From Citrus sinensis (lineage: Eukaryota > Streptophyta > Magnoliopsida > Sapindales > Rutaceae): a stretch of 64,000 bases of DNA. The position numbers and the translations under genes were made by a program. The stretch covers positions 29,981,001-30,045,000 of the forward strand of contig NC_068563.1 of NCBI RefSeq assembly GCF_022201045.2, written 5' to 3'. Under the pieces are notes generated by a model. That model had not been told where the DNA came from. It made no database searches and saw only the letters and a program-made list of their open reading frames with translations. Positions 13,320-54,017 of this stretch are shown here, piece after piece (the first letter of the stretch is position 1; each line of letters begins with the position of its first letter).

Positions 13320-15177
13320 CTAAAAGTATTTTTCAAACTTGGTTGCTAAAAATTTCTTCAGCTCAGGGTCCGTCTCATAGTACACAATTTCTCCAGTGTC
13401 ACTCACAAAGTGGTCTTCGCCAATGCTTTTCACCAAATTCTTGATCAAGTGGACTGGAATTGGCCCTGATTTATTCGGCTCACGGTAGTACTTTCCCAGC
13501 ACTGGCTTTGCTGCCTTTGTCTGCAGAGCAAGAGCAACAACAATCAAACTCAAAACATTAAACAAACCTGCATATGTTTGATGCAATTCAGTTTTAATGA
13601 GATCGCGATCGTACAGCCTCTACTAAGTGATAATGTGGGATTTGAGGGAACAGATGATGAATGACATGAGTGCCGATATCATGGTGAATGTTGTTGAAGA
13701 TTCCATAATCTCTATCCACTGTTGTTAGCCCTCCTCTCAAATAATTCCATTCCTGCCAAAAACCAGATTCATTTTCTCAGCTATGCCTAAATCTGCAAGC
13801 CTTTCCCGAAATGGGAAAATGAATTGATTTTTCGCATTACCTTGCCACGGTACCAAGGTAGTTTGTGCTCATCATCACCATGGTGATGCAAATAGGTAAC
13901 AAAGTCCAACCACATAACGAAAATCTGCCGCAAAATTTGAGCAACATCAGGATTCTCGTACGAATCAAATCAAAGAAAGAAATGATACAAGTGATGAAAG
14001 ATTGTACCCACCAAGTAAGGAACACCATAAAGCTTAAACATTGTGATAGGACCAAATACAAAGGATAAATACACCAGCAAGCCAAACATGAAAGTCCAAC
14101 AAGCAGTTGAAATCACCACTGCTTTTCTCTCCCCTGGCGAAAACAAACTGCTGTAAGGATTGAAATGAGATCCATCCTTTCCAGGACTTCGGTACCACTG
14201 TCATCATCAGAGCGCGGAAATTAAATATGTTCATCTGCTTAAATCATAACGAAAAGAAGCAATGTAATTGTAGCTTCAGGTTTAGCTTCATGCTCACCAG
14301 ATATGCAGGGTATGCTAACATGGGTAAAGGCAATGAGAATCTCAGAATCCTTGTACTAGAATCCAATTTACTGTAAATCTTCTCAGGCATCTGAAATTAT
14401 TAATAATAAATTGTAAAGAGTGACAATAATCAACAAATAAATGTACATAATTTGTGCCATGAAATCAGTAAAGCGGTTACCGGCACCCAAGATTCATCAT
14501 GTTCAACGTTGCCATGGTTTTGGTGATGTGTTCTGTGGCTAATTCTCCTGTAGAAAAGATTTTTTCAAGAATCTTTAATTTATTGCACGAGACAAATTTG
14601 AAAGAAAGTAAGGAAAAAAGAGAGAGAGAGAGAGAAAAGAAAATGGAAGTTACAAGGATCTTAAAAAAAGCTCACCATCCGTTGTAAGGTACAAGAATTG
14701 ACGAATGCAGGATGTGTCCCACAAAGCTGTTCAGCAAAGGACTTTCCGAAAAGCTTCCATGGCCACTGTTAAAAGAATCCAAAAACAGAATCACGAACTC
14801 ATCTCTACATCAAACAAACAAAAAATGCAGCAAACAGACCGAAGGAAAGACAGAGATTTTTGGAATATATATGCATACCAGTCATGGCCAAGAACAAAGA
14901 TAGCCCAGAACATGGTTCCTTGAGCAACCCAATAGAGAGGCCAAAAGAACCAAGTGTTGAAGTGAGTAGCAGCAGCTAGCAATGCAAGAACCACAAGCAA
15001 ATCTCTGAGTACATAGCTCAAAGACCTCCATGGATTCTTGACCCAGCAATGCTTTGGAATGGCAGCACGGATCTCGCCAATCTTGAATGGAGGAGGAGCT
15101 GCTGGGTCAAAGGAATCTCCTTTCTCAACAACCCCATTGGCATTCACTTCATTCTTGAGCTTTCTTTCTTTCTCCAT
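13320..15177 (-). CDS. FAD3: microsomal omega-3 fatty acid desaturase
   Basis: Converts linoleoyl to alpha-linolenoyl groups on ER phospholipids. There are eight exons: 15177-14879, 14765-14676, 14547-14481, 14390-14298, 14197-14012, 13924-13841, 13752-13615 and 13520-13320. All introns are GT-AG and the exons join to 385 residues, the usual length. The di-iron histidine boxes are complete: HDCGH (98-102, split by intron 1), HRTHH (134-138) and HVIHH (302-306). Hydrophobic segments lie at about 55-85, 165-180 and 205-250. There is no plastid transit peptide (MEKERKLK start), so this is FAD3 and not FAD7/8. Exon sizes of 67, 93, 186 and 138 fit those I recall for the family. Exon 6 is 84 nt and encodes [12 protein letters not shown] where homologues have HHHGHDEKLPW. 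A TATA-like TATATATA (15308-15316) lies upstream of the ATG. A GA microsatellite lies in intron 2. Confidence 0.96.
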
Positions 15178-15585
15178 TGCAGCAGCAAGCAAAGAAACCG
15201 AGAAGTGAAATGAGCTTTCTCTCTCAGTCTCAGCCGCTGCTAGCTGTTGTTGTGTAGTAAAATAAAATGTTGATATAGGAGCAAAGCAAAGGCCAGCTAA
15301 ATGCGAATATATATATGCAAAGGCCAAAGATTCTGCCAATGCTCATCACTGCTCAACATAATTTTGTATATAAGTATGTGTGTGCCTCCCTCTGTTTCAA
15401 ATCTCAAAAACCTAGACACGTACAAGTGGACCAGATCAACGTGTGGGCTGCCGAACGTTTCGGTCACTCGAACATTTTCACCGTTTCCACTTTTCGGTTT
15501 CCACCGCAGGAAACGTGTTGTACTTTGCCACAACTTATTAGCGTCTCAAGGTAACTCTCCTGCAAGCAATGAGACCTAATTTGTC

Positions 15586-20047: not shown

Positions 20048-20273
20048 ACCAACAAAGTGTTGGCTCCACTGGTAATGAAGTTCCTTTAAGTGGCTTGATT
20101 GGATTTACTTTTCAGTTCGAGTCGCAGGGAAGTCGCCTTTATTGGGAGAACCTGTGCCTCCCGGTTTGAGCGGTGACTTCTAGTCTGGGTTGTGGTACAG
20201 GCTTAAAAGTGCCTCTCATAGTTGATGCTCTCCTCAAGATACCTCGTGATTAAGACAAAAAAATAAAAATAAA
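20048..20273 (+). mobile_element. tRNA-derived SINE
   Basis: A 226-bp element with an RNA polymerase III promoter layout: A-box-like TGGCTCCACTGG at 20061-20072 and B-box AGTTCGAGTC at 20114-20123. It ends in an A-rich tail (about 20255-20273). It is flanked by the exact 12-bp repeat AATAACAGAAGA (20036-20047, 20274-20285), consistent with target-primed reverse transcription. No coding capacity. Confidence 0.75.
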
Positions 20274-20445
20274 AATAACAGAAGATGTTTTGGTTCCAAA
20301 ATTCTACGTAAGCTAAATGGGAACGAATATGAGTTTCGTGAACATCTTTTCCTTAAAAAAAAGAATAACAGAAGATGTTTTGGTTCCAAAATTCTACGTA
20401 AGCTAAATGGGAACGAATATGAGTTTCGTGAACATCTTTTCCTTA
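20274..20445. repeat. exact tandem duplication, 90-bp period
   Basis: 20274-20355 and 20364-20445 are identical over 82 bases (AATAACAGAAGATGTTTTGG to TTTTCCTTA), separated by a short A-rich linker. The first copy begins at the right-hand TSD of the SINE at 20048-20273. Complete identity implies a recent event. Confidence 0.85.
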
Positions 20446-28490: not shown

Positions 28491-30085
28491 ATGGATCGGC
28501 TAAATATCCTTCTTCTGGGTCTCCCTCTCTTTCTTCTCTGCAGCGACCTCTTAAATCTTTTCACTCCTCCGCCGCCGCCGCCGCCAAAATCCGCTTCCCA
28601 CCACCACCATAAACCGCCTATACCTTCGGAAAACCTAACCCCAGACTTTCCTTCACAGGTATTACCTTTTACTCTCTTTGGATTCAAATTGAAACCATAG
28701 CTTCCGTTATGAGAAAATTATTTCTTTTAAATTTTCTCCAAAATTTTCTCCAAGACTCATTAAAAAAATATTTTTTTTTTCAAAGGAGGGCTTTTGTTTA
28801 TAGTATGTTTCTTATTAAGAGTTTCTGATATCGTTGTTTGCAGAAAATTGTCGGAGGAATTGGGTATGGCAGTACTGTTAATATCAACTTTTGTGCTTCT
28901 TGCTCTTATAGGTATGGTTTGTGTCGTTTTTTTTCTTTTTGGGTTTAATGGTCTTGATTATTAGTGTACATTGGGTGCAGTCTCTGTTAATGGTAGATGC
29001 GTTTATGATGTGATCTTTTTTTTTTTTTTGGTCAGAATTGTGATGGGAACTATTATTAAACGAGAGTAACGTGCTTAATTGCCTTGATATTTGCTTAAGA
29101 CTAGTATTGATAAATTTACCAACATTTAGGAATATATACTTATAACCCATTTGGAAGAATTAGACATTAGCTCATACGGTATGGTTATGTCTACACAAGC
29201 ATTTTTGTTATTGTGGGGAAGTATAGAAGCTCAGTAGGGTCATAAGGCAAACCTACTCATTTAGCAGCACGTGATTTTTAAATGCTTTAAGTGTTCATCT
29301 GTGGATGCTCAAGCTCTTTCTTTTTGGTAGGCTAGGCTTTGCAACATCAATATATTCAATCGTTTTAGTTCACTCATCAAGAAACTGAGATAGATTCTAG
29401 AAAAATGCTGTAAAGAAAATTGTAACCTGTTTCAGGGGCACTGCAATAACAATGAAAAGGATGTTGGAGACTCAGTTTCCTGGGATTGATGTGGTCCTTG
29501 CAAATTATCCCCCACCCCTGCCAAAGCGTCTACTTTCTAAAGTGGTGCCTGCTGTTCAGATAGGGGTTATTGGGATCGTAGTGGCAGGCGAACAGATTTT
29601 TCCGATGCTGGGAATGACACCACCTCCATGGTATTATTCGCTGCGTGCCAATAGGTTTGGGTCCATAGCATCTACCTGGCTTATTGGAAACTTTTTGCAG
29701 TCCTTCCTCCAAAGCTCTGGGGCTTTTGAAGTTTACTGTAATGATGACTTGGTCAGTGATCTCTCTATCTAGCTCGCTGTCTTTATATGTCAAAAGTAAC
29801 TGTTGTTACTACTGATGCCTTTTGCTAGTCTATTGATAGTTACTGATCATTGAAATATTAAACAGGAGAATGATGCAAATAAGCTTGCAACCACGTAAAA
29901 ATCACTTTGACTGCATTGGGTATAGTGTTTAGAGGGGCTTCTTATGCTTGATTCTGTTCATTGTGCAGGTCTTCTCTAAACTGAAGGAGGGGAGGTTTCC
30001 AGGCGAGATTGAGCTAAAAGATCTTGTTGCCAAACAATTGGCTTCATCAAGACTTGTGGATGGTGTTGGAAGTGTATGGTCCTAG
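28491..30085 (+). CDS. SelT-like protein (Rdx thioredoxin-fold family, Cys form)
   Basis: Four exons, 28491-28658, 28844-28911, 29436-29751 and 29969-30085, give 222 residues with GT-AG introns. The N-terminus (MDRLNILLLGLPLFLLCSDL) is a signal peptide or membrane anchor, followed by a Pro/His-rich linker (PPPPPPP, HHHHKPP). The Rdx fold follows: the INFCASCSYRG redox motif (C-x2-C), a GTAITMKRMLETQFPGIDV segment, and a hydrophobic helix (VPAVQIGVIGIVVAGEQIF). Animal selenoprotein T has Sec at the second motif position; this one has Cys (TGC), as in land plants. The family is placed in the ER or Golgi and is thought to be an oxidoreductase; the plant substrate is unknown. Corresponds to At5g58640 by memory. 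Confidence 0.92.
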
Positions 30086-31507: not shown

Positions 31508-34500
31508 CTATATTCTGCTGATATCACGACCAAACACAAAAGTTGTAGCCCAGTTGACGGCTACATAGAATCTGTTCCTCCAGCTAACCACCCTAGTTAG
31601 GTATGCTGAGCGCCAGACAAGCCAACTGAGGAATCCTGCCGAAGATAAACCTTTTGATTCCTGTCGAAATTACTCCACAAGTGAGTCCACATTTTGGTTT
31701 ACAGCTCAAGAAAGAAGGGGTTAAAGTGCTTAGAGATTCACCTTATTTTGCCTTAAGTCCACGAGTGCTTTGTAACTGCCAATTGTTGCCATGCTTCCCA
31801 GATGCCTGTAGACAAATGGGTCTCCAAGTTCCATGTCCTTTGCACTATTTGCTCGCCCACCACCAGCTTTGCCAATCCTGTTCAATAGACTAAAAAGGTA
31901 TTTTCCTTGCCTCTCTGCAACCTGTTCAAAATGCTTGTTAAGGAACACACATCGAAGAACCAGCACCAGTTCCTAGCAAGTAAGAAAGATGGCTTCTGGA
32001 AAAGATGAAGCTGTTCGTAGCTTACCTGGGCCAAAGCTGGAAGGACGGTTTTACCGGTACTTTCCAAATACCCACTGCAGTCACCAACTGCAAACACATC
32101 TTGGACAGACGGAACTCGTAGCCATTCATCAATACCAATCCTTTTGGACATACATAAATAAATGAATAATTAGCAGCCTCCATGTAAAATATTCTCTGCC
32201 CCAAAGCACAGATACAAATTTGATAAAGATCCAAAAGATGAAGGATATCTTGAAAGTATGGCATTTGCTGGAAACCACATAAGAAAGCAATGAAAATCCT
32301 TTCTATTGTGTAAACGGTGGCAGTGCTGCATGTTCAAACTTGAATAATTCTAAATGTGAAGAGAATTTTGCAAAACCCAAAGGGTCAACTGAATAAAGAT
32401 CCCACAAATTCAAAAACAGGAAAGTGATTTTTACCTAAGCATTTTCAGATATATCCAAACATTTTTCTGGCTGGCTAACGAAACAAGTTTTCCACAGACA
32501 CACACACACACAAATATTTTCTAGAAAGAATTTTTAGGAACTAAACTTAAAATTTCTACATAACTTGAAAACTTTAAATAGATGCAATTGAGGAAAGTGT
32601 ATTGCAGCAAGCAAAAAAGTATACGTAACCTACCTTCCACCAGGGGACTTGGGTAAATCCAGGGACTTTACAAGAGTTGACGGACCAACACCCGTAGACC
32701 ATACTAACAGCCCATATGGTACCTCTGTGCCATCATTAAGGATTAGCTTCTGGGAATCAACATCCTTGACAATCCCACGCACAAGACGAACTCCTGACTG
32801 AGAAAAACTAGTGAATGAGAAGATGAAATATCCAAATGAATTGTGAGTCAACAATGTCCCAACATGCACTTTTTAAGAATAGAGAAGTGATCTATATTAC
32901 TCAATTGTGAGTAATTCCAAGCTTACAATTGAAATGAATTCTTCACATAATCCTTTATATCAAAAGAATTTTAGTTTACTTATTCTCATTAGTTGCCGTA
33001 CAGGCAATGTATCTCACAAAGCACAGAACTCCACTAGATATTTCAAAATCAGACTAAGAAGAGAGAAATTGACAGCGACCATATGTTTCAGGTACAAACC
33101 GCAGTACCTTTGCATTTATAAAATTTTTCTCACCTTTGACAACTGCGTTGTAGCATAGTGCCTGAGTCGATCGTCAAAGGAAGATAATATCTCATTTGCC
33201 TATGAAGATGACAACAACTCTGGTTAAATCAAATCAGTAAATATTTGGGAACTCTAAATTGGGGACTTCAGTGCAAGAATAACCCTAGATATGCCATAAC
33301 AGCAATTACAGACAATTTCAGCCAAGAAGCTTGAATAGATTGCATTAAATCTGTTAGAACCGTATAACAACAAATACATAGAATGAAGAAGAAGCCATTT
33401 GATTATATTTGATACCAAAATTGTAGTCCGACAAACCTCAATCAATGTAACATGAATATAATCTTTCACATGGGAATATCTTTGCCGAACATCTCTCATA
33501 ATGAAATCACTAAGTTCACCACTGAACTCAACTCCTGTGGGACCACCTCCCACAACAACACAATGTAGGAGTCTGGATTTTTCTTCTTCTGATATCCCTG
33601 CCTCCACACCAAACAAGAAAGTACAATTTACTTTGGAATCTCATATCAAATGATTCTTCAAACAAGATGACCACAACAACTTACCAGGAACATCAGACAG
33701 CATCAAGTTCAGGAGTAGCTTCCTACGAATTTCCTGAGCATGATGAACTTCACGAAGAAAAGTTGCATTTTCTTTCACACCATGGATTCCAAAAGTCGAG
33801 GCCTCTGCTCCCAATGCTATAACCAACTTGTCATATGAGATTTTAAACTTCCACGGCTCCAAGGTCCTTAATTCATCCGTCACAGTCTCGCAGTGCACCT
33901 TCATCACCCAAAACCAATTTTCTTACAATATCGCTCTACATAAGCTAAAATCTTCAACATTTCATAGTTGTAACAAATGCTACATCATTCAGTAAGCGAA
34001 TATTTAACCAGAGAAATAATCAAACTTTAACATACAGAACCCGCATTTCCATCCAATATCATCATAGAACCACAAATAACTCCAATTACTAAGCTAGATC
34101 CATCAAAACCCTGTATTTAACTCATGAATTTAGAACAAAAAGTTACAAAAATTTTTTCAAATTCTTTTCAAAGAGCCACTGCAAACTAAAATTAGCAACA
34201 GTACCCAGAAAAGGGAAAAAAAAAAAGGATAAAACAAATCGAATCATTGAAAAACAAAGAAGCAAAATCACACCACATGATTATCAGTATCGATGCCAGC
34301 GCAATGGGAGAGGAAAAAGTAAGACCCGGGTTCCCTCGAAATAGCAGGCTGAATCCTGGCAATGGGTTCGGCCACAGACCTGAACTCAAGCGTGCCGACG
34401 CAAGTAGAGGCCAAAAGAGGAGTAAACACCATGTGATTCCTCGGGGACACGCAAACGACGTCGTATAAACTCGTATCTATGCCCTTCATCAGCCTGCACC

Positions 34501-34720
34501 CCGCCCAGCCAGAGCCCAGCACCACCACCCTGGGCTTCTCATTTGCCTTAGTGGGCCCCAGACCCGAGTACTGCGTCACCTGCACCGTCGACGGTGACGC
34601 GTCAGTTGTGAAGTGTGAGAGGCAAGTGAGAATCAAGTTGGAGGGCATTATTATTGATGGTGATGAATATGAATACGATTTTGCTGTGGGGTTTCTGAGA
34701 AGATGCTTGAACAAAGACAT
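31508..34720 (-). CDS. NDA2: internal alternative NAD(P)H-ubiquinone oxidoreductase
   Basis: A type II NADH dehydrogenase of the inner mitochondrial membrane, matrix side, that passes electrons to ubiquinone without pumping protons. Eight exons (34720-34274, 33898-33685, 33597-33437, 33199-33134, 32797-32634, 32140-32026, 31921-31742, 31660-31508) give 499 residues in frame. The first about 40 residues look like a mitochondrial presequence. Two dinucleotide folds are visible: [10 protein letters not shown] (65-74, FAD) and [15 protein letters not shown] (from 234, NADH). Family signatures [11 protein letters not shown] and the C-terminal [20 protein letters not shown] membrane-associating stretch are present. 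There is no EF-hand insertion, so this is NDA and not NDB. The C-terminal tripeptide SRI resembles a peroxisomal PTS1. Telling NDA1 from NDA2 depends on the FAD3-NDA2-PHF5 gene order. Confidence 0.95.
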
Positions 34721-35255
34721 AACGGAAGCTGCTTATTTGGTTTTTGCAGAGACACAAGCACCGAACACAACAGAGAGATAAGTAAGTGGTGCTGCTGCTG
34801 CTAAGTGCTAGGCGGTTCCGATAATTTTGGGTGTAGTTTCTCTGCTTCCAGATCGTTGACGCAGACAATTCTGAATTGGTTACGTGGCGAGTCAAGCATG
34901 CGCCAGAGGCTTGATGGCGTCTTCTGCGTTGTCGTATGTTATGCTGCACGTGCAGATGAACGTGCTGCCACGTAAGATGAGCTGTTTTCTTTAGTGAAGA
35001 AATTACAAAGCCTTTGCTTTTAGTTGTTTGTTGTAAGAGTACTTGATGAGCAAAGAAGGATCCGAAACGAATTTGACATAATTCATGTCAGCTCTTTCAG
35101 CTGTTCATTATGTACTTCATGAACACTTGCATTGCGTACATAACAGTATTCTATCAAATACCAATCCGCTCCTTTATTCTCAATAAGTTGTACATGTCTT
35201 GAAGCAAAGTCAAGATTTTATTTCAATGATAATATACATCACATTAATTAACATT
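34721..35255. promoter_or_regulatory. NDA promoter region with palindromic G-box
   Basis: Upstream of the minus-strand NDA gene. A perfect 12-bp palindrome, CTGCACGTGCAG (34944-34955), carries a CACGTG G-box about 225 bases before the NDA ATG, with two more ACGTG cores nearby (34885 and 34960-34972). G-boxes bind bHLH and bZIP factors and would fit the light or ABA response known for NDA genes; that link is inference. Confidence 0.45.
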
Positions 35256-35889
35256 TTAATTGTTGTCCCTTGGTGCGCCAACTTCATTAGGAGGAGCAGG
35301 AGGAGTATGCCCCGGGTTAGGCCCGGGATCATGATAATCCAGCACCTCGGCCGTTAAGGAAACTGAAACTTTGTTCGATGTTGAGCTTCCGCAGCTGTCA
35401 TCAATGTCCATCTTCAAAGATCTTCCATCCATCGCCAACATCTCTTTATTTCCTGAAAAGGTCAATTATTCCGTTACTGATAAAAGGTCATAAACTACCA
35501 ACAGTATTCTCACCACGTTATGTATAATAAATATGAGCATTCTTAGGTGCGGTTGAAATTAATGTATATGAAAAATTTTTAGGTGCAGTTGCTGCACGTT
35601 TTAAATTGCAGACTATCAACCCTTTATGAATGTGAGCGTGTGTGATTAAATCGCATTCTACAATATTTGGACATTCCTGTATGTATGTATTTACACAGAA
35701 ATACATTTCTCCAGACATCTTATGAGCCTCTTCAATGGCACTGAAGTTGTGGATTAATCATTACATGTCCTTAATTTTGTAATTAGGAAACATGCCTGAG
35801 ACCGGAAGTGGAATGGTGTTTCGAGCCGAAGCCATTGCAAAAGCAGACATGCTCAACACACAGAGAATGAGGCGTATCAAAAATCCCAT
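35256..35889 (-). CDS. PSY-type tyrosine-sulfated peptide precursor A
   Basis: Two exons, 35889-35796 and 35452-35256, encode 96 residues. The N-terminus (MGFLIRLILCVLSMSAFAMA) is a signal peptide. The motif DYHDPGPNPGHTPPAPP (residues 70-86) follows the spacing of PSY1 (D-Y-x-D-P-x-x-N-P-x-H-x-P-x-x-P-P), with Tyr71 the expected sulfation site. Proregion residues SARNT and EMLAM-GRSL match the neighbouring gene B, and both have one phase-1 intron. PSY peptides are secreted, sulfated by TPST and perceived by leucine-rich receptor kinases, balancing growth and stress. The donor here reads TCAG|GCATGT, a GC-AG intron. The nearest GT choice (GGCAT|GT) shifts the frame and stops at once. A TATA-like TATATATG lies at about 35960-35968. 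No named symbol is assigned. Confidence 0.82.
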
Positions 35890-36249
35890 TGCTCTTCGCT
35901 TTCTTTGAGGTGTATATTATAGGATTGGGATGTGTAATATTGATAATACTACAGCTCTGCATATATAGGAAAAAATCTGCACCAGAATAACAGAATCTCG
36001 ATCAATGGCCAAGATTGACTGCTGGAAAAACAATAATGATAAGGTTGTGATTGTACCATTGTCGTTATCCCACAATTCACCTCAGCCCTTAATATAGAGA
36101 AAATCACGCGTATCAGCTAGATATGTTCCGGAAGGTTTCATTTGATCCTTTGATGCTGGTGAGCGAGCGTCCAAATTTCAAACTACAGCTTTCCGGCCAA
36201 GACTAAATCCGTCGAGGCATTAAGTCGAACGGTTTGGGGTTTTCATCAA
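35890..36249. other. upstream of PSY precursor A
   Basis: Presumed promoter of the minus-strand PSY-A gene; apart from the TATA-like site no motif stands out. A MITE begins at 36250. Confidence 0.4.
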
Positions 36250-36421
36250 GGATCAGGATCCTGAACTGATTTTCATATGAGCAAATTATGTTAATATAAT
36301 TGATGGTTAATAAATTTAAAAAAAAATAGTTAAATCATAATCATTCACTAATATTAAAACACAAGTGGCACAAGATTTGTAAAAGATCAAAAGTGTTCAG
36401 ATCAGGAGAGGATCATGATTC
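36250..36421. mobile_element. Mutator-like MITE, family 2 copy c (inverted)
   Basis: Inverted relative to the copies at 11848 and 17571. Ends GGATCAGGATCC and the complement of GAATCATGATCC. Flanks TTTCATCAA (36241-36249) and TTTTATCAA (36422-36430) agree at 8 of 9 bases, giving a 9-bp TSD. It sits between the two PSY genes. Confidence 0.65.
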
Positions 36422-36430
36422 TTTTATCAA

Positions 36431-37646
36431 ACATATTTATTTCTATCTTACAAAAATGAGTGGAGAATGTACATTTTTTATGCAAATGTGGCAACTGTTC
36501 CTTAGATCATATTCACCTCCATGTGCACATAAATTATGGGTGGACACATGTCGTTAGATTGAGTGTCCAAAGCAAAATTCTAAATTCATATCACTCATCG
36601 TTTATAAATAGAGACATATCTCTAAGAAAAAAGAGATCTTTAGCCTCCAAAAGTAATGTTCATACTTAGAGAGAGAAACACATTTTCTCCATTTTTCCTC
36701 TTTATTTAATCTTGATTAAACAATAACTTGTGCGTCAAAGTGCTTTTTTTAGATACTCACCCATGTGGATTCGAGGCCAATGATTGTAACAAGTTCTCCA
36801 CAAATCAAAAATACGACTGAAGGTAAATTCCAGCCCCTTCACTCTTGCATTTTATTTAACTTCACGACTCTTTTTGGATACTGATACTGATATGAGAATT
36901 ATTAACCATTAGTGCAAATATATTTACTTCACATATGAAGAAAAAAGCAAATTCTTGGCAAATGGTTTGCAATGAATGAGAAAGTGATTAATATTACCTC
37001 GTAATGGACCTTAAGTAGACAAATTTTTTAAGGATATATTACGTAAAGCACGAGGTAAATTTGTGAAGATAAAAAAGAGTATTTTCAGCTAATCGAATTA
37101 ATTCTTTAAAAAATTTCAAACATAAAAAAGAAATAACTCCTTAAAAGAACTTCAATCTTTACTCCCACAACTCAAAATTCGAATTTTGTTCGATAGAGTA
37201 AAAAATATTTTTTTTTTCACCTCCATAAGTTCAACTTTAAAAGGTAAAATGGCATTAATTAAAAAAGTTATTTCTGGCGGCAGCGTAGTAAAGTCATACC
37301 AAATTAATTGGCACTGAGATGACACTAGTCACATAGATCAAGTCCGCAGAGTGAAGTAAATTTGAATATTGAAGTGCAGCCTTTTAAATTTTAACTATGG
37401 GCACACGACAATTGGTAAACTTACTGATTTATTTTCTTCTCTATGATCGGCATAGTTGGTATTCGATAACACACAAAGAGTTAGAGCGTACGTTTTATTT
37501 GGTACATAAAACGAAGACACTGTGTATCAGCTCCCTTGCACAAGCCAAAACGGGAGCATGTGACTTGTACATTATTTATGCATACATTTTTTTTTTCCCT
37601 ATGATGGTCAAGAAGTAATTAAAGCATGCATCACGAGGCATGTTTC
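36431..37646. other. spacer between the PSY genes
   Basis: AT-rich DNA with short, domain-free open frames (36460-36669, 37397-37618). The part adjoining 37647 is the 3' region of PSY-B. Confidence 0.4.
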
Positions 37647-38730
37647 TCAGCCTTTCCGGCCACCGCCACCTCTGCCGCCCCTCGAGGGAGGATCATGCCC
37701 GTGGTTCGCCGATGGCTCACCGTAATCAGCGAGGTTCGCCGTCAAAGACCTTCTTGATCCCATGGCTACCATCTCATCATGGTTCCCTGTTAATTAGATG
37801 CAACCGGTAATAAGATATTTGTCTCACTAAGCTTAACAATAATATATTTTAGCAGTCCTCATTTTTGTTTTAAAAAAAACAAAATTAAAATATCTCCATA
37901 GTTACTTCTGTTGGAATTAAAATTACCGTCACTTTTTCAAAGGCAAAAGGGTATTATATTTTTACCACCGCTCATCGACAGGTAATCTTTTACACTAACA
38001 CTAACACTAACATACGTAAATGATAGTCAAATTTTTTAAGTCAGTTTTGGAAGCATGAGAACTCTTACGGACTAAAGGGGAATTTTAATTACCCCTTAAT
38101 ATAACAAGAGTTGTTGATGATTTAAAACAAACACCGCAGATTTAATTAAATCATTGAAAAATGAGCTAAACTATGCATTTGTAGATGAAGCAAGGACAGT
38201 CTCTTGTGGAAGTATAATTCAATATAGTAATAGAAAATAGAAAATCTAGGCGACCAAATTGAAAGAATCTAGCTGGCTGGCTTATTGTATCTGCACGCAG
38301 TACAATACAGCCCTCACCAAAACGTTTATGATCATTCACGCATGCACACTTGATTAAAACGCAAATAATTATGCTTAATTAAAGAGGATTAAATGGGCAT
38401 GTAGCTAGAAATAGAAATGTTTAAACACTTCTTTTTAAGATATAAAAGCATTTTTTAATCCTTTTCTGCAACTTTGCAAGTGTTGAACAGGTACACTAAT
38501 GCCAAAAATTATATGGTTCAAACACGAACTTTGAAGGATAGGATACGCATGTGAAAAGAAGAAGAAACAAATAAATGCATGAACTTGTTTCGATGAAACG
38601 ACTAATATCGAGAGCCCTAAAAGGCAAAAGCAGAAGCAAATTACATACCTGAAATGAAAAGAGTGTTTCTTGCAGAAGCAAAAGCAAGCAAAAGATAGAA
38701 ACAAAACCAAACTCCAATTCCACACCCCAT
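37647..38730 (-). CDS. PSY1: PSY-type tyrosine-sulfated peptide precursor B (PSY1-like)
   Basis: Two exons, 38730-38649 and 37786-37647, joined through a GT-AG phase-1 intron of 862 bases, encode 73 residues. Neither exon is obvious as an open frame, so the gene is easy to miss. The N-terminus (MGCGIGVWFCFYLLLAFASA) is a signal peptide. The core DYGEPSANHGHDPPSRG (48-64) is very close to the PSY1 peptide pattern DYGDPSANxxHDP; Tyr49 is the expected sulfation site. A Gly/Arg tail (GGRGGGGRKG) follows. SARNTLFISGNHDEMVAM parallels gene A. A TATA box (CTATAAA, 38806-38800) and a G-box (CACGTGGC, 38842-38849) lie upstream. PSY1 orthology is supported by its place between SelT-like and 2OG-oxygenase genes, as at At5g58650. 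Confidence 0.87.
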
Positions 38731-39441
38731 CTCTGCTTATTAATTTGCTGGTGACTTGTGGTTGTTTATGCGAATGCGGTGGATACAGAAGAGAGGCCAT
38801 TTATAGGCGTGGGGCATGAGCCACAGCCCGGAGCCTAGAAACACGTGGCAGAAATAAAGCCAATTTTAAGAGTTGACGATTGCAAAATAGTGGGTGCACG
38901 TTCGATGCATGAATTGTTCAATTCATATTGGCATCTCAGCCGTCCATTCTTCAGTCAACGAGGGCTCTTCTCGCCTCCTTTTCTTGAAAAGGACAAGGCG
39001 TTGGCTTGTTATACGAAAAAAGTCATCGTGATATAATGTGAAAGCGGAAATTAATATAAAGGAAAGGACACCGGGATCCCCTAGCTTCGTTGTTAAGCTC
39101 TCAAAATACAAGGTTAAATTCTCAAATGAACAAGAAGACCTCCCCTTCTCGTTATGAATTCTATTTATTCGATGAAAATGAGAGCATTAACATAAACGTC
39201 CTCAATGATAATGCACTATCACCCTCAATATAGGTTTGTTCCATTGAACTCTTAGGAAGATAATTGTCTAAAAAATAAACAGTTATATTCATCTTCTCAA
39301 AACAAAAATGAACATCCAAAGTTTCTTTCATTGGTGAATTTTATTTAATAATTAGATGCATATAGGGTTACTGAGGTTAAAGTGCCATACTGCTTTAATG
39401 TCCTCGAATATGAAGTACTTTCCTTATCTAAACACTGTAGG
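38731..39441. other. PSY-B promoter and intergenic DNA
   Basis: Carries the TATA and G-box sites noted for PSY-B. Beyond about 39000 it is AT-rich with nothing recognised. Confidence 0.4.
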
Positions 39442-43167: not shown

Positions 43168-43500
43168 TCATCTTTTCTTAAAACCATATTTCTTACGTTC
43201 GTAAAACAGGTCCGTTTTCGCACTGCCCAAATTGACAATTTTTGGACAACCATCCCTGTCCTTCTCTTGCTGTGTGCACTCTTTGCAGTAGTATGCATCA
43301 GAGATTCCCACCCCTCCACAGATGACACATCGACCCTGGAAGGAACCATAATTGCATTCATCACAGACTCGCACAAGGGTGCAAGGACGCACATAGGAAT
43401 CACAAATCACACACTTCCCATCACATTTCTCGCAGAGCCTTCCAATGGCTATCCCTGGTTGCTTCCTGCACATGATCAAATCAGGATGATGCTTGGCCAT
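43168..43500 (-). CDS. PHF5A: PHF5A / SF3b14b splicing factor
   Basis: A 110-residue protein, the fixed length of this family, in a single coding exon from [16 protein letters not shown]. It is a core subunit of the SF3b complex in U2 snRNP, helping to recognise the branch-point adenosine. The conserved Cys pairs that form its zinc knot are visible ([45 protein letters not shown]), as is the C-terminus [11 protein letters not shown] 5' UTR intron runs from 44038 (CAG|GTTAGT) to 43546 (TGCAG); coding exon 2 starts at 43545. The frame continues upstream but its first codons are in the leader, so the start is Met 43500. Corresponds to At2g30000 in my recollection. Confidence 0.97.
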
Positions 43501-44178
43501 GGTTTCTACGACAAAAAGCTGGTAGCTCCTATAAGTTCTTAGGACCTGCAGATATATCCACAATCAACAATGTTATGCTCACCAAATACCCAAACTTAAG
43601 ACGCAAAACGAGAGAGGGGGCTAAATTTATCAGAATTTTGATTCTATCTTGGAAAACAGCAAAAACCGATCACTAATTACGAAATTAAGCAGAAAAAATC
43701 AAACATTAGTAAAACAAACAGAACAGAACAAGATTATGTTCTTGTGGGCTTAAAAGCATTTTCAGGTCCCAACTCCACACCTATTAACTAATTAAGACCA
43801 ATTGTTTACTAAACAAATATGATCTAACTAATCAACTCCCACGCAATAACAAAATTACAAAACGTTTTAGGAACCAAAAGCTAAGTTTTATACTATTCTT
43901 TTATTGTTCTCCGCATCCTCAGCAGCAAAGGTATTACTTTAAATCAATCTACAAACAATTAATTAAAAACCCAAAATCTCACAAACAAAGGAAAATGAAA
44001 CAGAAGATTAACGCCAACAGGGTTTACTGGATACTAACCTGCACAGAAGACTCGAAGTCCAGATGCTAACGTCCGCTTGCTTGGAGAAGAAAATGTTGAG
44101 ATTGCTTCGAATCAGCAAAGAGAGGGTTTTGTAATATGTTGAAAAGAGCATTTTAGGGCTTATCATAAAAAAAAAAAA

Positions 44179-53108: not shown

Positions 53109-53910
53109 TGTGGCATCACCATTTCTCATCATTTCATATTCTCTATTATCTAATAAATTGGTTGAAATTAAAAAATAATTACATTACAAAATATTAAAAA
53201 AATAATTATTAGATTATAAATGATTACATGTCTTTTCCTCTTTCTATTTAAATTCAACAATATATAACCATTAATAATAATTAATTATAAGTCTTGAAAC
53301 ATTCATTTATTTTATTATGCAAACAATTAAATTTTAGTGGCTTAAAATACATCAATTAATTAATATAAGAAGGAAGGTTCCTTCATCTTCCCTAAAAAAT
53401 GTCATTAGAGCCTAATTTTAATATCATAATCCCATATTTAATTATGCAACCTTTTGTTTAATGCCTTTTGGCTTCTTTAAACTCTATAAATATTAAGTAG
53501 TTAAGATTTGTGGCATTATTATTTCTCATCTTTTTATATTCTCTATTATCTAATATATTGGTTGAGATTAAAAAATAATTACATTACAAAATATTAAAAA
53601 TAGAAAATAATTAATAGATTACAAAAGATTACATGTCTCTTCCTCTTTCTATTTAAATTCAACAATATGTAACTATTAATAATAAATTAATTATAAGTTT
53701 TGAAACATTCATTTATTTTATTAAGCCAACAACTAAATTTTAGTGGTTTAAAATACATTAACTAATTAATATAGAAAGGAAGGTTCCTTCATCTTCCCTC
53801 ACCAATGCCATTAGGACCTAATTTTAATGTCATAATCCTATATTTAATTATGCAATTTTTTATTTAGTGTCTTTTGGCTTCTTCTAACTCTATAAATATT
53901 AAACATTTAA
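53109..53910. repeat. 400-bp direct duplication inside the Helitron
   Basis: 53109-53508 and 53509-53910 align along their length: TGTGGCAT, TATTCTCTATTATCTAAT, AAAAAATAATTACATTACAA, GGAAGGTTCCTTCATCTTCC and CTCTATAAATATTAA recur in the same order with scattered changes. Internal duplication is frequent in Helitrons. Confidence 0.85.
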
Positions 53911-54017
53911 GATTTGTTATGTTTGGTTTTTTTTTATTATTTAACCAACATCCTCTTTAGAAATGTTGTTGTGTTTTTATTTTTTGACTTATTTAAATTT
54001 TTAGTATTGTGTGCGTC

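Follow-up and report, generated by a model that had tools for sequence, protein, structure and literature searches.

Adjoining PSY peptide precursor genes in Citrus sinensis with cores that resemble two known Arabidopsis subclasses

The genes and their surroundings

The window (the whole 64-kb stretch of Citrus sinensis DNA that was analysed) contains two small two-exon genes on the minus strand, A and B, whose outer ends lie at 35256 and 38730, where a previous reading of this DNA (the sequence-only reading) had placed them (Table 1). In both gene models the frame is intact after splicing, yielding precursors of 96 aa (A) and 73 aa (B), and both introns are in phase 1 and interrupt the coding sequence shortly past the signal peptide, at S-G/N (here and below a slash marks an exon boundary). 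The features that had been ascribed to both genes, namely a signal peptide, SARNT, an E-M-x-A-M proregion, the phase-1 intron and a PSY-type core, were all confirmed.

Without splicing, the frame from the gene A ATG stops at 42 aa, short of the core. When all splice choices that keep the ATG, core and stop of gene A in one frame were listed (38 choices, 18 with GT and 20 with GC donors), the one ranked first by a home-made consensus count had a GC donor, CAG/GCATGT. The KEMLAM block, which has a counterpart in B, is kept in two of these 38 choices, both with GC donors, and SARNT is also kept in one of the two. From its sequence, the gene A intron thus appears to be of the GC-AG type, a point that had not been made before. 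The presence of a GC-AG intron in A and a GT-AG intron in its sister B points to possible splicing control of a hormone precursor.

Gene B, as had been claimed, is invisible as a long open frame, since its pieces are ATG frames of only 29 and 41 aa. A 121-aa open frame (38435-38800, minus strand) overlaps gene B exon 1 in another frame and includes the gene B TATA box; this overlap is probably due to chance. The TATA-like boxes of A and B each lie ~70 bases 5' of the ATG, and these are consensus matches rather than proof of transcription. Elsewhere in the window there is a tandem repeat in an AT-rich stretch (53109-53917; a 406-base unit present twice, 88% matching), and a 90-base unit is present in two head-to-tail copies at 20264-20445 (97% matching).

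Table 1. Features of the A-B locus and its flanking marker genes (positions within the window).
Feature	Position	Strand	Basis
Gene A exon 1: signal peptide and SARNT, ends in phase 1	35796..35889	-	gene model, hydropathy
Gene A intron, 343 bases, GC-AG (CAG/GCATGT ... CTTTTCAG/G)	35453..35795	-	splice listing
Gene A exon 2: proregion, PSY core, proline-rich tail, stop	35256..35452	-	gene model
Gene A core DYHDPGPNPGHTP, PSY5/7/9 type	35301..35339	-	motif match, core comparison
Gene B exon 1: signal peptide and SARNT, ends in phase 1	38649..38730	-	gene model, hydropathy
Gene B intron, 862 bases, GT-AG	37787..38648	-	gene model
Gene B exon 2: proregion, PSY core, Gly/Arg-rich tail, stop	37647..37786	-	gene model
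Gene B core DYGEPSANHGHDP, PSY1-4 type	37689..37727	-	motif match, core comparison
TATA-like box upstream of gene A	35961..35967	-	consensus match only
AATAAA downstream of gene A	35217..35222	-	consensus match only
TATAAAT box upstream of gene B	38799..38805	-	consensus match only
AATAAA downstream of gene B	37494..37499	-	consensus match only
Type II NAD(P)H dehydrogenase exons, Pyr_redox_2; synteny marker	31885..34732	-	domain and solved-structure matches, no gene model built
Frame with whole PHF5/SF3b14b domain; synteny marker	43171..43563	-	PF03660 E 1.1e-49

Membership of the PSY family and common descent of A and B

Membership of the PSY family was judged by the published C-terminal motif DYXXXX[AP]NXXHXP (PMC7913133). 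A six-frame scan of the window gives two strict matches to this motif, one each in A and B, and no match was found across 200 simulated 64-kb windows with the same neighbour-base statistics; together with the shuffle tests described below, this argues that neither gene is a product of chance. All five conserved core residues are present in A, and both genes contain Asp-Tyr, the context for sulfation, as judged from sequence. In addition, both precursors fall inside the range of 60-200 aa used as a criterion for PSY precursors in wheat (PMC11641228). The hydrophobic N-terminal 11-mers have mean hydropathies of 2.62 (A) and 2.37 (B), values reached by 12 and 10 of 5000 shuffles, respectively, and the ASA at -3 to -1 before RNT in both proteins is a normal signal-peptidase context, judged without a dedicated predictor. 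A Pfam search gave no match for precursor A or precursor B, and PSY precursors are described as variable in sequence (PMC7913133); a search of solved structures with the A or B core as query also gave no matches.

The two precursors resemble each other with an E value of 3e-11 (single comparison), and when B was shuffled against A, none of 2000 shuffles reached the real score. Outside the core, this likeness, which goes beyond what the published criterion demands, includes SARNT and SGN...EM-x-AM, and when the proregion was compared by itself, 3 of 2000 shuffles scored as high. The similarity of the precursors and the same phase-1 intron support common descent of A and B at the sequence level. 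Therefore, the proposal that these are two PSY precursors in tandem is supported, both genes having the family motif and the precursors being homologous.

The same motif criterion has been used to define PSY families in wheat (PMC11641228) and tobacco (PMC12153210). Some wheat members have two exons, like A and B, whereas most wheat and tobacco genes are reported to have more introns (PMC11641228; PMC12153210). In contrast to the A-B pair, the wheat survey is reported to have turned up no tandem duplicates (PMC11641228).

Core subclasses

The 13-residue cores of A and B were compared with the published cores of the Arabidopsis PSYs, taken from a table in PMC11534595. The A core is identical at 9/13 positions to PSY7, PSY5 and each of two PSY5-like copies in its own genome, at 8/13 to PSY1 and PSY9, at 7/13 to gene B, PSY2, PSY3 and PSY6, and at 6/13 to PSY4 and PSY8. 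The BLOSUM scores of the A core are highest for PSY7 (56), followed by PSY5 and the own PSY5-like copies (55), PSY9 (53), PSY1 (48) and B (43). For the B core, identity is 10/13 to PSY1 and PSY4, 9/13 to PSY2, 8/13 to PSY3 and PSY7, 7/13 to A and PSY9, and 6/13 to the rest. Each core is thus closer to one of the Arabidopsis subclasses than it is to the core of the adjoining gene. By sequence, the B core is of the PSY1-4 type, and its described closeness to PSY1 holds, with PSY4 equally close.

The sequence-only reading had also proposed that A acquired a new peptide specificity. This claim was drawn from a comparison of A with B and PSY1, and it weakens sharply once the remaining Arabidopsis PSYs are added. 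The alignment that it had suggested, made here on the published Arabidopsis cores, shows that A and B both fit the PSY motif and that the core type of A was already known. The PGPNP-x-H of the A core is present in Arabidopsis PSY7 (At3g49305, core DYPEPGPNPIHDP), and PSY5 (At5g53486), which shares both the GPNP-x-H core and VLDY with A, and PSY9 (At3g49300, core DYPEPGPDPKHDP) are similar; A therefore looks like a member of a known PGPNP-x-H core subclass (PSY7/PSY5/PSY9) and not like a fresh specificity. In A, unlike PSY7 and PSY9 (compared by their cores alone), DY is followed by His-Asp, the last core Pro is preceded by Thr, and a B-type gene adjoins. PSY7 and PSY9 themselves adjoin each other by locus number, so a side-by-side PSY pair is not new. 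There are also differences between B and its close relative PSY1 (At5g58650). For example, PSY1 has LMVNVED up to the core, as read from a published primer (PMC7913133), where gene B has LTANLAD, and the 13-residue core is followed by GVPPS in PSY1 (PMC11534595) and by P and then a Gly/Arg-rich tail in gene B. Descent is not settled by 13 residues, since A is equally close to PSY1 and PSY9 and B has 8/13 identity to PSY7, and a tree built from such cores is not robust.

Other PSY genes in the same genome

Protein searches covered one plant genome, that of the window itself. Two PSY5-like exons were found on contig C3 at 18191368 and 18250460, in the same orientation and with 59 kb between them, with cores DYDDTGPNPKHDP and DYDDAGPNPKHDP and with 100% and 95% identity to the 38-residue query. 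These nearly identical exons represent a second, younger-looking PSY duplication in this genome. Unlike A, both copies have KDM..MRKRLMLGAVL before the core and a basic, Lys/Gly-rich tail. The same contig also contains one PSY6/8-like gene (core DYPGSGANNRHTP), the sequence of which allows a phase-1 intron to be placed behind the signal peptide. The presence of these genes elsewhere in the genome indicates that core diversity is a family trait and not peculiar to the A-B pair. With A and B, the genome has at least five PSY genes; this tally is a lower bound because short queries are insensitive, as is evident from an 18-residue PSY1 query that gave no match in this genome although gene B is present.

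Gene order and Arabidopsis counterparts

The type II dehydrogenase exons adjoin A on the same strand, and among solved structures they match rotenone-insensitive NADH dehydrogenases best; we take this gene to be of the NDA type. The order in the window is then NDA-type dehydrogenase, A, B and PHF5. By published Arabidopsis locus tags, NDA2 (At2g29990), PSY3 (At2g29995) and SF3b14b-b (PHF5; At2g30000) are neighbours at one locus, and SF3b14b-a (At1g07170), PSY4 (At1g07175) and NDA1 (At1g07180) at another, adjacency here being read from locus numbers and not from a map. On this basis each of the two Arabidopsis loci has a single PSY, of the B type, flanked by NDA and PHF5, whereas two PSY genes are present here, and A is without a counterpart at either locus. 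The match in NDA-PSY-PHF5 order makes B, by position, the probable counterpart of PSY3/PSY4, to which its core also shows the identity given above.

Two further frames touch on gene order. An N-terminal exon at 14794-15342 (minus strand, Pfam DUF3474) resembles an omega-3 desaturase and is presumably FAD3-like; as we take FAD3 to lie beside NDA2 in Arabidopsis, this exon may extend the gene order held in common with the NDA2 region. In addition, a selenoprotein-T-like (Rdx) frame just above the Pfam cut-off is found near NDA (29401-29769, plus strand), and, on our assumption that selenoprotein-T-like genes are neighbours of Arabidopsis PSY1/PSY2, it is possibly linked to those regions.

Age of the duplication and alternative explanations

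The local duplication that had been proposed is likely, but it looks old: the best non-coding match between the A and B regions (blastn) is just 27 bases long (E 4e-4, 25/26 A/T on each side), nearly pure A/T. Gene A is either a long-standing neighbour that Arabidopsis has lost at both loci or an acquisition in the lineage of this plant.

The A proregion is unlike the short stretch that precedes the own PSY5-like core (1919 of 2000 shuffles scored as high), although A exon 2 as a whole scores 74 against the own PSY5-like exon and 70 against B exon 2. The likeness of A to B outside the core would also be expected from a later duplication in which the A core converged on PGPNP, but an old event fits the core evidence and the absence of convincing common non-coding DNA better.

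A more elaborate version of the old-duplication reading, which we regard as rather unlikely, holds that in a common ancestor of Arabidopsis and this plant the NDA-PHF5 locus had two flavours of PSY gene next to each other, one of the PSY7/5 type and one of the PSY1-4 type, that Arabidopsis lost the A-type at both loci, and that the GC-AG intron gives A separate control. If this were true, output of the A peptide would depend on the splicing efficiency of its intron, and the neighbours would be controlled separately.

Less probable still is a lineage-specific tandem duplication after which the A core changed to a new ligand specificity, as originally suggested. The core type of A is known from Arabidopsis PSY7 and PSY9, both of which it matches better than it matches B, the sole non-coding match of note is A/T-rich, and PSYR1-3 are stated to be the receptors for all nine Arabidopsis PSYs (PMC10629525), all of which argue against this proposal. 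It draws on the position of A and B side by side on one strand, their common proregion, the unlikeness of the A proregion to that of the own PSY5-like gene, and the single PSY at each matching Arabidopsis locus by locus number. Finally, it is very unlikely that A is a decaying copy, with its GC donor and altered core as marks of a pseudogene or poorly expressed relic, for although only a small share of plant introns are GC-AG, the unspliced frame ends before the core and Arabidopsis PSY7 itself is described as barely expressed outside flowers, the frame across both A exons is intact, the five conserved core residues are all kept, the bases around the GC donor form a good context, and gene A has TATA-like and AATAAA matches.

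Proposed function of the pair

PSY precursors are secreted proteins in which TPST sulfates the Tyr of Asp-Tyr and prolines may also carry modifications; subtilases are proposed to free the peptide, which represses PSYR1-3 and so shifts the balance from stress responses towards growth (PMC7913133; PMC10519359). By analogy with the family, A and B would each make a small secreted precursor, with the signal peptide probably cut after ASA. Sulfation of the Asp-Tyr tyrosine by TPST would take place in the Golgi, prolines would possibly be hydroxylated and arabinosylated, and subtilases would free a peptide of ~13-18 residues that starts with DY. This peptide is predicted to act on PSYR-type receptor kinases, lifting a growth-repressing, stress-promoting signal.

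The direct receptor labelling summarised in PMC10519359 is described for PSY5 and PSY6, with PSY7 not among the peptides named, and the expression of Arabidopsis PSY7 is described as nearly limited to flowers or minimal. By analogy, A and B would by default be expected to use the same receptors, the main differences being the place and time of expression. We hold with considerable confidence to a PSY pair in which B is the positional counterpart of PSY3/PSY4 and A has a PSY7/PSY5-type core, probably acts on the same receptors, and would differ from B mainly in expression.

Significance

Genes A and B are real, and the sequence-only reading located them correctly and described them well; they are also ordinary, being two new members of the known PSY family. 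Among the matches listed in searches of the literature on citrus or PSY tandem duplication, and for six core strings (which led to PMC11534595 only), there was no publication on the A-B pair, a result that does not establish that the pair is unpublished.

The A-B pair leaves the picture of PSY signalling unchanged. It illustrates how small split peptide genes like B are easy to overlook in annotation, and the NDA-PSY-PHF5 order provides a landmark by which PSY orthologues in different plants can be named. In addition, the adjoining A and B types offer a natural test of whether the core subclass alters receptor preference, or whether expression alone differs.
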